Positions 10,147-63,226 of a stretch of DNA of 64,000 nt are shown here, piece after piece. The notes under the pieces were generated by a model, which saw only the letters and a list, made by a program, of their open reading frames with translations, did no database searches and was not told the DNA's origin. Numbering within the stretch: the stretch's first letter is position 1; every line of letters starts with the position of its first letter. This stretch comes from Halorubrum salinarum (GTDB lineage: Archaea; Halobacteriota; Halobacteria; Halobacteriales; Haloferacaceae), in the NCBI RefSeq assembly GCF_013267195.1, contig NZ_CP053941.1, forward strand, positions 558,001 to 622,000. Direction: 5' to 3'. The translations under genes and the position numbers were made by a program.

Positions 10147-10386
10147 TGTCTGTCTGGTTGGAACGGCACAACCGCAACGTGACCGCGACTCCGCGCGGCG
10201 CGGCTACGAATCGCTCGCGGACCGAGCGATCCGACCGGACGGCCCGCGCGAGCGGACCGCCCGACCGCGACGCCGGAGGCGTCGGCGCACTGCTACATTC
10301 CCAAGCCGCGGGCGAAAGGGCCCCGGCGAGTCAGATCTGCAGCTGTGCTGTTCCCGTGTGAGGGGTCGCCGTCGGGGTTCTTAAGC

Positions 10387-10494
10387 GTGTTCTTGTGGGT
10401 CGGAGCGTTCCGGTGAGATGGAGTGTTCTTGTCGGCCGGAGCGTCCTCGTGGGCCGGAGCGTTCTCGTTGGGGCGAGCGTTCCCGTGGAGCGAG
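10387..10494. repeat. Six imperfect 18-bp tandem repeats
   Basis: Six consecutive units of exactly 18 bp follow the pattern G(T/C)GTTCTYGTGGGYCGGA. Units 1 and 3, and units 4 and 5, are most alike; units 2 and 6 have drifted. The plus strand would read as repeats of RSVLVG, but no convincing gene contains them. A TTCTTAAGCG stretch lies just before at 10377-10386. Regular spacing without obvious coding points to slippage expansion or an array of protein-binding sites. Confidence 0.85.
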
Positions 10495-12552: not shown

Positions 12553-12853
12553 GATCCCTCAGCCGCTCGCTTATAAATAGTCGACTGCGGAGCGACGACG
12601 AACATCTCCGAAGCCCCAGCCGCGAGGACTCGATGCGCTCGCTGTGGTCCTCGGCGCTCACTCCGTTCGCGCCTGCGGTCCTTGCGTCGCGCGTCTTCGC
12701 CCTCGCGACTGCCCCTTCGAGTCCGCCCGCAGCACCGCAACCGCAGCCTCACTCCTCCCCAGCCTCGCGGCTCCCTCCGCTTCGCTCCAGTCGCCGCGTC
12801 CCTCGCGCGTGCTCCTCGCGGCCTGGCGGCCGCTCGTTGGCACGCGCCACCGC
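12553..12853 (+). repeat. Copy A of structured non-coding repeat, with own TATA box
   Basis: The conserved body begins at about 12599 and runs to GCACGCGCCACCGC. It matches copy C on the plus strand and copy B in reverse complement. Shared blocks, in order, are AAGCCCCAGCCG, GCGCTCGCTG, CTGCCCCTT, CTCCCCAGCCTCGC, GCGTCCCTCGCGCGTG and CTCGCGGCC. A 10-bp stem (12618-12627 with 12701-12710, one C-A mismatch) encloses a 73-base loop. A CCTCAG block 54 bases before AAGCCCC is spaced exactly as in copy C. TTATAAATAG lies about 30 bases before the body. It is a candidate structured RNA gene or a mobile element. Confidence 0.7.
12571..12580 (+). promoter_or_regulatory. TATA box of repeat copy A
   Basis: TTATAAATAG is a near-ideal archaeal TATA box. 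It predicts a transcript start near 12597-12600, which coincides with the first base of the conserved repeat body. The equivalent positions in copies B and C have lost the A/T run. Confidence 0.65.
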
Positions 12854-12933
12854 AGTTGTGTTTTTAAATAGCAGATCGTCGGAACGGGATTCAACCGCCG
12901 CGAATCCGCGGGAACCGGGCCCGGACCGGGGCG

Positions 12934-31013: not shown

Positions 31014-31721
31014 ATGTTCGAGGAGTACGTCCTCGCCGCGAGCACGGCGGACCTCTCGGCGGAGCCGGCCGCCCGCGAGCACGCCGACGCCGTCGAGTTC
31101 CGGATGGACCTCGCGAGCGACCCGCTCGACCAGCTTGCGGACTACGACGGCGAGCTCCCGCTGCTCGTCACGAACCGGGCGTCGTGGGAGGGCGGCGAGG
31201 CGGACGGGCTCGGCCGCTACGACGCGCTCTCGGACGCGATCAGTCGCGACGCGGTCGCCGCGGTCGACGTCGAGCTCGCCGCGCTGCGCGGGACGCACCC
31301 CGACCCGGCCGAGGCGTCGCACGCGACCGCGCTGCGCGATGCGGCCCGCGAGGCCGGCGTCGCGGTCGTCGCATCCGTCCACGACTTCGAGTCGACGCCC
31401 GAGCCCGCCGCGCTGGTGGACCTCCTCGCCGACGCCGCGAGCGAGGGCGACGTGGGGAAGCTGGCGACGACGGCGACGGCGCCGGGCGACGCGCTCGCGA
31501 TGATCGAGGCGACCCACGAGGCGACCGCGGCGGGCCACCGCGTCGCGACGATGTGCATGGGCGAGCCGGGCCGGCACACCCGCGCGGTCACCCCGCTGTA
31601 CGGGTCGAAGATCGGCTACGCGCCCGTCGACGCCGCGGACGCGACCGCGCCCGGACAGTACCCGCTCGCGACGCTCAGGGACCTCGTCAACGGGCTGCGA
31701 GCGGTCGACCCGGAGGCGTAG
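31014..31721 (+). CDS. aroD: 3-dehydroquinate dehydratase, type I
   Basis: 235 residues. The type I enzyme's Schiff-base lysine is Lys149 in GDVGKLATTA, and the general-base histidine is His123 in SVHDFEST. EFRMDLAS near residue 28 holds the substrate-binding Glu-Phe-Arg. It dehydrates 3-dehydroquinate in the shikimate route to aromatic amino acids. No other aro genes are adjacent. Confidence 0.93.
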   Translation: MFEEYVLAASTADLSAEPAAREHADAVEFRMDLASDPLDQLADYDGELPLLVTNRASWEGGEADGLGRYDALSDAISRDAVAAVDVELAALRGTHPDPAEASHATALRDAAREAGVAVVASVHDFESTPEPAALVDLLADAASEGDVGKLATTATAPGDALAMIEATHEATAAGHRVATMCMGEPGRHTRAVTPLYGSKIGYAPVDAADATAPGQYPLATLRDLVNGLRAVDPEA

Positions 31722-31786
31722 GAGGTCGCCGCTCGGTCGAACGGGACGAATATTTTTCACCGGCGCCGTCGAAGATAACGGGTGAG

Positions 31787-31975
31787 ATGGCCCTCCTCCG
31801 ATCGAACCAGTCGTCGCTGGTCTCCGCGTTCGGCCTCCTGATCGCCCTCGTCGCGGTCGTCGGCACCCGCTTCCTCGGCTGGGAGTGGGGGTCCGGCCGG
31901 CTCGTTCCGACCCTCATCGGGGGCGCGGTCGCCGGGGTCGCCGTCGCGGTCGTCGCCGCGCGGCTGCTGGACTGA
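31787..31975 (+). CDS. Small two-span membrane protein, 62 residues
   Basis: Two hydrophobic helices (LVSAFGLLIALVAVVGTRFLGW and LVPTLIGGAVAGVAVAVVAARLL) flank the turn EWGSGR. A TATA-like AATATTTTTC at 31749-31758 lies about 33 bases before the ATG. The layout is ordinary for haloarchaeal small membrane proteins; function unknown. Confidence 0.55.
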   Translation: MALLRSNQSSLVSAFGLLIALVAVVGTRFLGWEWGSGRLVPTLIGGAVAGVAVAVVAARLLD

Positions 31976-32111
31976 GCGACGCGCGCCGACCGGTTCGAGC
32001 CGCCCGCCAGCCGCCGGCTCGTCGCGCGGTCAGGCGTCCGTCGCGGTCGGGCGTCCGTCAGGGCCGGCGCGGAGCCAAACCGCTTTACGACCGCCCCCGT
32101 AAGTGCGGGCA

Positions 32112-33080
32112 ATGGCGACGTGCGACGAGTGCGGGGAGTACGAGAACCTCCCGTACCAGTGTAAGCGGTGCGGGCAGACGTTCTGCGCCGAGCACCGGCT
32201 CCCGGAGAACCACGACTGCCCGGGCCTCGCCGAGTGGGACGACCCCGGCGGCGTCTTCGACAGCGGGTTCGACGAGAGCGTCGAGGGCGGGTCGGGGGGC
32301 GGCTCCCGCTCGGGCGGCGCGTCCGCGGGGGTCGTCGATCAGGTCAAACGGCGGATCGACCACGAGACCAGCACCGGCGGGCTGATCAGCTACTTCCGCA
32401 ACAACGCGACGTACGCCCTCCTGCTGGCGATGTGGGTGACGTTCCTCCTCCAGTGGGCGGTGACGCTGACGCTGGGGGAGGCGGCGCACAGTCAGATATT
32501 CGTGCTGCGCTCGGAGGCGGTGGGCAACGTCTGGACGTGGGTCACCTCCGTGCTGTCGCACTCGCGGGTCGGCCTGTTCCACATCATTGGCAACAGCGTC
32601 GTGATCCTGTTCTTCGGCCCGCTGGTCGAGCGCGCGGTGGGCTCGAAGAAGTTCGTCGCGTTCTTCTTCCTGTCGGGGATGCTCGCGGGCCTCGGCCACG
32701 TCCTCTTCGCGATCGCGACGAATGCCCCGCCGACGGGCGTGCTCGGCGCCAGCGGCGCCGGCTTCGCGATCCTCGGCGTTCTCACGGTCTGGCGGCCGAA
32801 CATGCAGGTGCTGCTGTTCTTCGTGGTCCCGATGAAGATCAAGTACCTGACGTGGGGGATCGCGATCGTCTCCGCGGCGCTCGTGGTCCAGACCGGGACC
32901 GGCGGCGTCGGCGGGATCGCCCACCTCGCGCACCTGATCGGCTTCGCCATCGGCCTCGCGTTCGGCAAGCGCAACGAGGGGCTCGCGCGCTCCGCGGGCG
33001 GCATGGGCGGCGTCTCGATGGGCGGCGCCCGCGGCCCGCGCGGCCCCGGCGGTCCGGGCGGCCCCGGCGGGCGGTTCTGA
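32112..33080 (+). CDS. Rhomboid-family intramembrane protease with AN1-type zinc finger
   Basis: 322 residues. An AN1-like zinc finger (Cys4, Cys7, Cys17, Cys20, Cys25, His28, His34, Cys36) precedes a Gly/Ser linker and a six-span rhomboid core. The catalytic serine is Ser214 in GASGAG. The partner histidine is His271 or His274 in HLAHLIG, and the oxyanion-hole HIIGN is at 157-161. It should cut membrane proteins; the zinc finger may recruit substrates. A Gly/Pro-rich tail ends the protein. Its stop shares a base with the next start (TGATG). Confidence 0.9.
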   Translation: MATCDECGEYENLPYQCKRCGQTFCAEHRLPENHDCPGLAEWDDPGGVFDSGFDESVEGGSGGGSRSGGASAGVVDQVKRRIDHETSTGGLISYFRNNATYALLLAMWVTFLLQWAVTLTLGEAAHSQIFVLRSEAVGNVWTWVTSVLSHSRVGLFHIIGNSVVILFFGPLVERAVGSKKFVAFFFLSGMLAGLGHVLFAIATNAPPTGVLGASGAGFAILGVLTVWRPNMQVLLFFVVPMKIKYLTWGIAIVSAALVVQTGTGGVGGIAHLAHLIGFAIGLAFGKRNEGLARSAGGMGGVSMGGARGPRGPGGPGGPGGRF

Positions 33081-35678: not shown

Positions 35679-35828
35679 ACCGGGGTGGCGTGCCGAGCGA
35701 GCAAAAGCGCTCGGTGGACGGGAGGCCGAGACCGCCGTCAGCGGATGGACTGCGGCGCCCGCTCGGCGGGGCGCGCCACCGCGACCGCGATGGGGAGGAT
35801 TTATTCGGAGCGACCGGCCAGCGGGCGT

Positions 35829-36596
35829 ATGGTCGAGGCGTTCGCGGTCGCCAGCGGGAAGGGCGGCACGGGGAAGACGACGAGCACGCTCGCGCTCGGG
35901 ATGGCGCTCGCGGCCGACCACGACGTGACCGTCGTGGACGCCGACACCGGGATGGCGAACCTCCTCTTCCACGCCGGGCTCGACGACGCGGCGGTCACCC
36001 TCCACGACCTGCTCGTCGAGGGGACCGCGACGGACGTGAGCGAGGCGGTCTACGAGCGGTTCGGGCTCTCGGTCGTCCCCTGCGGCACCTCGCTGGCCGG
36101 CTTCGAGGCCGCGGAGCCGGAGCGGCTCCGCGACGTGGTGGCGGCGCTCGCGCGCGACACCGACGTGCTCCTGCTCGACTCGCCGGCCGCGCTGGGGTCG
36201 AAGTCGGCCGTCCTGCCGGTCGTGCTCGCGGACCGCGTCGTGGTCGTCGTCGAGCCGACGATCCCCGCGCTCTCGGACGGGCTGAAGGTCCAGGAGTACG
36301 CGCGGTCGTACGGCACGGAGACGGCCGGCGTCCTGTTCAACAAGGTCCGGGACGATACCGACGACGTGGCGGCGCAGGCGGAGCGCCACTTCGGCGGCCC
36401 CGTCCTCGCGAACGTCCCCGAGAGCGACGCCGTCCGGGCGGCGCGGCGGGCCGGCGAACCGCTGCTCGCCCACGCGCCCGAGAGCGAGGCCGCGGCGCGC
36501 TACCGGCGGGCCGCCGACCGGCTGGACGTGCGCGACGGCGACGGCGACGCGGTCGCCGACCGGTTCCGCAGCGCGGTCGTCCCCGACACGCCATGA
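35829..36596 (+). CDS. MinD/ParA-family P-loop ATPase
   Basis: 255 residues. The deviant Walker A motif GKGGTGKTT starts near residue 10. VVDADTGMANLLFHAG is the switch I region and DVLLLDSPAALGSK is Walker B. MinD-like proteins sit on membranes or chromosomes and help place cell structures; haloarchaea have several that are not essential for division. The C-terminal amphipathic membrane helix typical of MinD is not obvious. GGATTTATTC (35795-35804) is a TATA-like box about 29 bases before the ATG. It overlaps the next gene by ATGA. Confidence 0.88.
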   Translation: MVEAFAVASGKGGTGKTTSTLALGMALAADHDVTVVDADTGMANLLFHAGLDDAAVTLHDLLVEGTATDVSEAVYERFGLSVVPCGTSLAGFEAAEPERLRDVVAALARDTDVLLLDSPAALGSKSAVLPVVLADRVVVVVEPTIPALSDGLKVQEYARSYGTETAGVLFNKVRDDTDDVAAQAERHFGGPVLANVPESDAVRAARRAGEPLLAHAPESEAAARYRRAADRLDVRDGDGDAVADRFRSAVVPDTP

Positions 36597-61380: not shown

Positions 61381-61711
61381 GCGGTGGCACGTGCCTGCGA
61401 GCGGCCGGAGCGAAGCGGCGGCCGCGAGACAGCACGCGCGAGGGACGCGGTGAGGGAGGGGCGACCGAAGGGAGCCCCGAGCGAACCGCGAGGCTGGGGA
61501 GGTGCGAGGCTGCGGTCGCAGTGCGGGGCGGGGTGGACTCAAAGGGGCAGCCGGGAGGCGGGCGCAGGCAACGTAAGCACCGCAGCGAAGGAGCGGCAGC
61601 GACTGAGCGAGGAGCGCAGCGAGCGTGCGCCCGCCTCCCGGCTGGGGCTTTGGCGGTGTTCGGTGTCGGTCCACGATTACCCGAGTATCGCCCAGCGGTC
61701 GAGGCTTTGGA
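61381..61711 (-). repeat. Copy B of structured non-coding repeat, upstream of thi4
   Basis: In minus orientation it reads TCCAAAGCCTC, then 58 bases on CCAAAGCCCC and the common body as in copies A and C. It has the strongest stem: an 18-bp perfect inverted repeat, 61549-61566 with 61626-61643 (AGCCGGGAGGCGGGCGCA and its complement), enclosing 59 bases. The TATA position found in copy A is degenerate here. With copy C it flanks thi4 in inverted orientation, 5' ends towards the gene. Confidence 0.75.
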
Positions 61712-61803: not shown

Positions 61804-62739
61804 ATGGACGGATTCGACGGCTTCAGCGACGTGAGCGAGACGGACGTAACGAAGGCCATCGGTAACGAGTGGACCGACGGGTTCCTCGATTTCACAGACT
61901 CCGAGGTGATCGTCCTCGGCGGCGGTCCGTCGGGGCTGATGGCCGCGAAGGAGCTGGCCGAGCGCGGCGTGAAGGTGATGATCGTCGAGAAGAACAACTA
62001 CCTCGGCGGCGGCTTCTGGCTCGGCGGGTTCCTGATGAACACCGTCACGGTCCGGGACCCCGCCCAGGAGATCCTCGACGACCTCGACGTGGACTACGAC
62101 GCCGTCGAGGACGTGGACGGCCTCTACACCGCCGCGGGCCCGGAGGCCTGCTCCGGGCTGATCAAGGCCGCCTGCGACGCCGGCGCGCGCGTCCAGAACA
62201 TGACCGAGTTCACCGACCTCGTCGTCCGCGACGACCACCGCGTCGGCGGCATCGTGATGAACTGGACGCCGGTCCACGCGCTCCCCCGCGAGATAACCTG
62301 CGTCGACCCCATCGCGGTCGAGTCCGACCTCGTCATCGACGCGACCGGCCACGACGCCGTCGCGATCAGCAAGCTCGACGAGCGCGGCGTCCTCTCGGCG
62401 CCCGGCATCGAGCACGCCAAGGAGCACAACACCGGGATGGACCAGACCGGCGACGACCAGTACGGCGCCCCCGGCCACGACTCGCCCGGCCACGACTCGA
62501 TGTGGGTCGGCGAGAGCGAGGACGCCGTCGTCGAGCACACCGGCGTCGTTCACGACGGCCTGATCGCCTCCGGCATGGCGGTCGCGACCGCGCACGGCCT
62601 CCCGCGGATGGGTCCGACGTTCGGCGCGATGCTCGTCTCCGGGAAGCGCGCCGCGCAGGCCGCCCTCGACGAACTGGAGGTCGACGCGCCCGAAGTCACG
62701 CTGTCGACCGGCGGCGCGCCTGCGCCCGCCGACGACTGA
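61804..62739 (+). CDS. thi4: Thiamine thiazole synthase, Thi4
   Basis: 311 residues. GGGPSG (39-44) with [14 protein letters not shown] is the dinucleotide-binding region, and VDATGHDAV closes the fold. Cys166 in [11 protein letters not shown] occupies the position of the cysteine that in yeast-type and Haloferax Thi4 is important for sulphur donation; sulphide-using archaeal enzymes have histidine there. It makes the thiazole part of thiamine from NAD and glycine. An internal [14 protein letters not shown] loop matches the family. ATG 61804 is used because the frame upstream is repeat DNA. Confidence 0.94.
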
Positions 62740-63226
62740 TACATCACCGCTGACGCTCCGGAAACGCGCCCCTCCAAAGCCTCAGGCGTCTACTCGTGAA
62801 TCGCCTGTAGAGGATCCGTAGCGGACACCGCCAAAGCCCCAGCCGGGAGGGTTCGGTGCGCTCGCTGCGCTCCTCACTCGGTCGCTCCGCTCCCTCGTTC
62901 CGGTGCTTGCGTCGCGCGCCTTCGCCCTCCCGGCTGCCCCTTTGCGTCCCGCCCCGCACCGCACAGCAGCCTCACACCTCCCCAGCCTCGCCGTTCGTTC
63001 CGGGCTCCCTACGGTCGCCCGTCACTCACGGCGTCCCTCGCGCGTGCCACCTCGCGGCCGCCGCTTCGCTCCGGCCGCTCGCAGGCACGCGCCGACCGCG
63101 TGGTGATGTATGAACGTCCGCAGCGCACCAAGCTCGAAATCCGCTACGCGCCCGTCCGTCACGAACGTTCACTCGGGAGCGACTCAACCGGGTGCCTTTT
63201 TCCGGCGCTACGTCGAACCCGGCGGT
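62740..63226. other. Gene-free stretch holding repeat copy C and pyruvate kinase promoter
   Basis: 487 bp between thi4 and pyruvate kinase. Repeat copy C fills 62773-63100. The remaining 126 bases before pyruvate kinase include GTGCCTTTTTCC (63192-63203), about 30 bases before the ATG, as its likely TATA element. Frames over the repeat are basic and low-complexity and were not called. Confidence 0.5.
62773..63100 (+). repeat. Copy C of structured non-coding repeat, downstream of thi4
   Basis: It matches copy B (reverse complement) from TCCAAAGCCTC onwards and copy A from CCTCAG onwards, with the same internal spacings. The main stem is 11 bp (62841-62851 with 62925-62935, AGCCGGGAGGG and its complement). 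The 3' part has GCGTCCCTCGCGCGTG, then CTCGCGGCCGCCGCTTCGCTC, a 7-bp hairpin (GCGGCCG/CGGCCGC) also formed in B. The TATA position is lost. It runs towards pyruvate kinase. Confidence 0.75.

Follow-up and report, generated by a model that had tools for sequence, protein, structure and literature searches.

A dispersed, intergenic repeat family with a covarying fold in Halorubrum salinarum and other haloarchaea

Background

The DNA analyzed here is a 64,000-nt stretch of Halorubrum salinarum (contig NZ_CP053941.1, positions 558,001 to 622,000), referred to below as the window. Three copies of a repeat (A, B, and C) lie within it, and a first-pass annotation, made from the letters alone, noted that one stem of copy A differs from copies B and C by a base change on both sides that leaves the arms paired. 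Is such a change a chance event, or is the repeat maintained as a folded structure, and if so, which strand folds, how widely is the repeat distributed, and what kind of element is it?

Architecture of the element

In Halorubrum, the element is approximately 250 nt long and consists of two hairpins (P1 and P2), a G-rich linker, a long hairpin (P3), and then one to three short 3′ units. On the folded strand, read 5′ to 3′, the core is ordered P1, CGAGGGA, P2, GAGGCTGGGGAGG, G-rich linker, GGGACTCAAAGGGGC, P3, GGGGCTTT. Features are given in window coordinates, each followed by the evidence or context for it.

12611-12853, minus strand (5′ end at 12853): conserved core of copy A (alignment of 41 copies from the same genome; fold z of the minus strand)
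12602-12725, minus strand: P3 domain, comprising GGGACT..AAGGGGC, the long hairpin, and GGGGCTT, together with the initial bases of the 3′ flank (32 pairs; model R1)
12618-12627, minus strand: P3 arm noted in the first pass, the 3′ arm on the folded strand (sequence, pair counts)
12701-12710, minus strand: P3 arm noted in the first pass, the 5′ arm on the folded strand (sequence, pair counts)
12766-12798, minus strand: P2 hairpin with a variable stem, of class CGC/GCG in copy A (pairing above that with shuffled partners)
12805-12847, minus strand: P1 hairpin, GGCGCGTGC/GCACGCGC plus an apical stem (RNAalifold pairs)
12863-12870, no strand: TATA-like box TTTAAATA at the P1 border (box peak in 130 elements)
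12557-12609, minus strand: 3′ unit containing a TATA-like box, TTATAAATA, at 12571-12579 (tandem 57-60-nt units)
61381-61650, plus strand: core of copy B (upstream of a Thi4-like gene at 61804-62739 and in the same orientation)
62834-63099, minus strand: core of copy C (downstream of the same Thi4-like gene, in opposite orientation)

A covariance model of the long hairpin (model R1) matched P3 of copy A at positions 570602-570725 of the main chromosome (C1). Two copies of this genome (L039 and L040) share a 55-nt double-hairpin insertion at one place in P3, as if one had been copied from the other.

The two ends of the Halorubrum form differ. In other genera, P3 units are also found arranged in head-to-head pairs whose outer ends match; at L190, L193, L215, and L226, such forms have a spacer of approximately 30 nt, often with a TTGATCA-like core. 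Short deletion forms were seen at L193, L202, L206, and L101; these lack either the P3 hairpin or the entire core and retain the G-rich foot. In a look-alike element at one locus of related genomes (L162, L163, and L166), the outer helix shows a compensated change, with GAACG/CGTTC replacing GAAAG/CTTTC; immediately downstream, the sequence of L162 and L166 is masked.

Compensatory changes in the stems

The arms of the stem in copy A read AGCCGCGAGG (12618-12627) and CCTCGCGACT (12701-12710), and C12623 faces G12705, so that pairing is preserved. In copies B and C the arms read AGCCGGGAGG and CCTCCCGGCT, and the stem of copy B runs to 18 perfect pairs (AGCCGGGAGGCGGGCGCA/TGCGCCCGCCTCCCGGCT). 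The first-pass annotation had described all of this correctly; it had taken the double change to suggest selection on structure, while cautioning that a single covarying pair is weak evidence, and it had named as refutation further copies in which pairing-breaking changes were as many as pairing-keeping ones. The P3 structure was written by hand and then counted. Across 39, 93, and 67 distinct copies, 95-97% of cells were paired and double-sided changes came to approximately three times the shuffled expectation, which supports selection on structure.

The 39 copies from the H. salinarum genome, aligned by plain MAFFT, had 95.1% of cells paired (82.3% when shuffled) and 163 double-change cells (50 ± 6 when shuffled), with double changes in 21 of the 32 pairs. 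The alignments of 93 distinct Halorubrum copies (96.9% paired; 348 double-change cells against 105 ± 7 shuffled) and of 67 copies from other genera (97.3% paired; 502 against 137 ± 10; double changes in 30 of 32 pairs) were fitted to the model and are therefore biased towards it. The whole P3 structure exceeded all 500 shuffles on each of five measures, and it exceeded all six slid controls, which were only 27-47% paired.

RNAalifold, applied to 41 copies of this genome, gave 51 pairs, of which 28 showed double-sided changes; an apical pair of P1 was GC in 19 copies and CG in 17. Pairing in P2 reached 94.5% in the main class and 93.5% in the CGC class, compared with 78.1% and 85.1%, respectively, with shuffled partners. 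Under a strict tree-based null, five pairs passed at E < 0.05 in the 41 copies, four belonging to P3 and the fifth to the base of P2.

The pair first noticed in copy A is not among these five, which bears out the caution about a single pair. Its states in the 39 copies of this genome were CG (23), GC (8), UG (3), UA (2), AU (1), and unpaired (2); in the 93 distinct Halorubrum copies, they were CG (73), UA (9), GC (8), UG (2), and unpaired (1). The paired change is real, is not due to chance, and is one of hundreds in the family. The element is a conserved structured nucleic acid in which compensatory changes exceed both chance and the slid controls, and its stems accept much sequence change and not the loss of pairing.

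Folding strand and fixed internal motifs

When the stems are read on the G-rich strand, G-T pairs outnumber A-C pairs by approximately 6:1 (34:6, 72:12, and 76:12 in the three alignments), and in unpaired columns C to T was not in excess over G to A. The consensus fold was −72.6 kcal/mol on the G-rich strand and −58.7 kcal/mol on the opposite strand; for copy A alone, the fold z was −2.89 on the minus strand and −1.35 on the plus strand. P3 has tandem GA/GA mismatches at two places, retained in 33 and 34 of the 39 copies of this genome, while the pairs that flank them covary. Because G·U far exceeds A·C on one strand only, and because the tandem G·A mismatches are fixed between covarying pairs, the folding strand is the G-rich strand, which for copy A is the minus strand of the window. 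The C12620-A12708 mismatch recorded in the first pass is real on the plus strand; on the folded strand it is therefore a U-G wobble, a state found in six copies of this genome.

Other parts of the fold are also fixed in sequence. A GGG/GGG internal loop is constant within stems whose adjacent pairs covary, and the foot of P3 carries four G-runs, conserved in no fewer than 120 of the 130 Halorubrum copies and no fewer than 61 of the 67 from other genera. A quadruplex formed by these runs is possible. The folded strand is most likely RNA; a role as single-stranded DNA would be expected to leave a nearly identical pairing signal.

Distribution of copies

Using model R1, approximately 57 copies were found on the 2.94-Mb main chromosome, and a DNA search of the same genome returned at least 40 full matches and one fragment. 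The smaller contigs held one weak match of 33 bits and none above 33 bits. The absence of all 57 copies from C2 and C3 has a probability of 0.0007 if copies are spread by length, and copies are confined to the main chromosome. No copies were found in plasmid records or in phage records, where the P3 consensus was unmatched; viral contigs gave one exact-pattern match.

Copies were present in 52 of 52 genomes searched in the genus, at least 134 of 170 in the family, and at least 283 of 392 in the order, at 1 to approximately 90 copies per genome. Of 295 genomes drawn from the phylum, at least 39 had matches, all of them within the order, and no genome beyond the order matched. We take this order to be Halobacteriales from the named hosts, which include Halorubrum, Haloarcula, Natrinema, Haladaptatus, Halobaculum, Haloparvum, Halorussus, Halopiger, Halostagnicola, Natronococcus, and Haloterrigena. 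Pattern matches in Bacteroidales lay in unrelated sequence and were rejected as chance.

Rfam 15 was searched at the gathering threshold and at E ≤ 5, and no family was placed at the element; the best score there was an 18.5-bit chance match to a CRISPR repeat (E 4.3). The sole Rfam match in the window was the S15-Halobacteria ribosomal leader (RF03143, 71.5 bits) at 10287-10357 on the minus strand, which is adjoined by an 18-nt tandem repeat at 10389-10482. A literature search by sequence string and keyword, with subscription papers mostly outside its coverage, found no description of the element.

Genes were called with our own codon-usage script, and all 41 copies checked were intergenic (no overlap > 60 nt with a called gene). 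Long blocks of a single orientation along the chromosome, as from replication-linked insertion, were not found (36 runs, 29.4 expected).

Stability of sites and exchange among copies

At the copy A locus, syntenic genes flank the element or its remnants in most of the genus members fetched, and both site and orientation are kept. The 17 copy A orthologues had a P3 identity of 0.790 among themselves and 0.796 to other copies; 95.5% of their cells were paired, with 56 double-change cells against 13 shuffled, and stems were seen to switch block-wise among them. Orthologues are no more alike than unrelated copies, which suggests that the family evolves as a pool, with overwriting as the simplest reading. 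Identity levels, together with block-wise stem switching at this one locus, suggest that copies overwrite one another by non-allelic gene conversion. Fast neutral change also contributes to the divergence of orthologues, as the intergenic DNA beside copy A is approximately 20% diverged (by eye).

Within the H. salinarum genome, identity between copies had a median of 79% and a maximum of 91%, and there were no very young copies. At two window positions (approximately 35680-36007, and 31524-32244), relatives have an element and this genome does not; one of the two holds a possible remnant (GCGCGCCACCGCG). At these two element-free orthologous sites, either the flanks were diverged or a remnant was present, and there was no clear target-site duplication.

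Candidate explanations

We consider it reasonably probable, with ample room for doubt, that the element is an uncatalogued, chromosome-bound family of dispersed intergenic repeats that evolves as a pool and is selected for its folded strand, most likely as RNA. Read-through of intergenic regions would yield RNA from the G-rich strand, and selection would act on the folded single strand. A protein may recognize the fold by its tandem G-A stems and by the P3 base with its conserved G-tracts. Copies would overwrite one another and would occasionally be added or deleted, making the family a larger archaeal counterpart of the REP and ERIC repeats of bacteria.

A very strongly covarying repeat with tens of copies per genome, found in most genomes of a well-studied order, has gone without an Rfam entry. 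Two questions become open to testing: what allows palindromic repeats bound to the chromosome to persist when no transposase has been identified for them, and whether REP/ERIC-like repeats are retained by archaea for a function. For annotators, the model explains many haloarchaeal intergenic regions that are otherwise unaccounted for.

A tentative possibility is that the copies represent a new Halobacteriales-specific class of large structured RNA, present in tens of copies, in which the four conserved G-tracts of the P3 foot could form a K+-dependent quadruplex in the multi-molar KCl cytoplasm and a protein would recognize the RNA and both maintain and spread the copies. It is also doubtful, and no more than conceivable, that the copies are genes for trans-acting noncoding RNAs, each giving a discrete transcript from its own promoter and acting with a protein or on target mRNAs. 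Strong structure, fixed internal loops, and tandem G-A motifs would suit such genes, as would TATA-like boxes at set distances from the element ends. Among 130 elements, these boxes peak 10-20 nt outside (5′ of) P1, and on the 3′ side they recur at approximately +32, +92, and +147, in the 57-60-nt tandem units of many copies. The spacing of the 5′ box would, however, place a start inside P1; it would therefore not serve cleanly as the promoter of the entire fold, and an own promoter for the full RNA was rejected. The 3′ end has no terminator-like U-tract, tens of copies per genome argue against this reading, and the orthologues are no closer than paralogues, unlike locus-specific RNA genes.

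We regard as unlikely that the element is a passive substrate of a transposase for folded single-stranded DNA, of the IS200/IS605 or RAYT kind, with only folding copies able to move. Such a substrate would fit the hairpins and their conserved foot, the occurrence in other genera of both single and head-to-head paired forms, and the range of copy numbers, from 1 to approximately 90; the Haloquadratum PATEs are known comparable repeats (PMC3119063). However, the Y1 transposase (PF01797) is absent from two genomes with 88 and 42 copies (G110 and G154), and only one of 24 Y1 loci (L314) has an element, which lies approximately 1.1 kb away from a Y1 match containing two stops; no mobilizing enzyme was found. 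The lack of young, near-identical copies, the long stability of the copy A site, and the lack of copies in plasmid and phage records likewise speak against passive mobility.

A role as a cis-acting mRNA element of the adjoining genes, either a 5′ leader switch or a transcription terminator, is very improbable. The intergenic position of every copy checked would agree with it, as would four tail-to-tail pairs of elements, each enclosing a single core gene (0.41 expected, P = 0.0005, in a test chosen after the pairs had been seen). Their positions on C1, and the enclosed genes as named from sequence, are as follows.

286044/286881: msrA
619534/620825: Thi4-like gene
990498/991078: small rubredoxin-like gene
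1430943/1431994: hisA

These genes have no obvious common pathway, however, and copy A is antisense to both of its neighbors. Adjoining genes occur in all four orientations (14 −,−; 10 +,+; 9 +,−; 7 −,+), and a leader or terminator of uniform orientation was rejected on this lack of orientation bias.

Long hairpins of very high GC content tend to undergo template-switch correction, and block-wise stem switching among orthologues would also be in line with a functionless fold in which template switching during replication perfects inverted repeats and mimics compensatory change, but this explanation is hardly credible because the tandem G-A mismatches and the GGG/GGG loop persist inside covarying stems, and the G-U over A-C asymmetry is strand-specific.

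Comparison with known repeat families

REP, BIME, and REPIN sequences are dispersed, intergenic, palindromic repeats present in tens to hundreds of copies, singly or as inverted pairs, and many are without a dedicated transposase (PMC3733652, PMC3116915). The element resembles them as a dispersed intergenic palindrome in tens of copies that also forms inverted pairs. Unlike REPs, which are 20-40 bp long and carry GTAG or CGTC tags, it measures from approximately 125 nt (P3) to 250 nt and has three hairpins with conserved internal loops. Its conserved foot is GGGACTSAAAGGGGC/GGGGCTTT, and the GTAG/CGTC tag of REPs was not found. It also differs from REP/RAYT systems in having no link to a Y1 or RAYT transposase. 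MITEs are marked by terminal inverted repeats and by target-site duplication at precise empty sites; here, outer ends match in the head-to-head pairs of other genera and differ in the Halorubrum form, and neither element-free site shows a clear duplication.

Among haloarchaea, the PATEs and SMRs of Haloquadratum are small palindromic repeats without a transposase, PATEs being linked to ends of the IS605 type and SMRs measuring approximately 80-110 bp with terminal inverted repeats (PMC3119063). Identity with either was rejected, as the element has no IS link, is approximately 250 nt long, and has a site conserved across the genus. The class I repeats of halovirus HF2, a virus of Halorubrum, are intergenic, 56-58 bp long, and contain a TATA box (PMC8707807). 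They are similar in length to the 3′ units of the element, and identity was rejected on the reported motifs (TCTTTAAGTC and CGTCTNNTAGAG), which differ from those units.

The element and ERIC are both many-copy intergenic palindromes, and the element belongs to an unrelated lineage and has extra domains. ERIC sequences are conserved, imperfect intergenic palindromes of approximately 127 bp that occur in many copies in enterobacteria. Falling outside the REPs in size, tag, and transposase, the element appears to act most like a REP/ERIC-type repeat.
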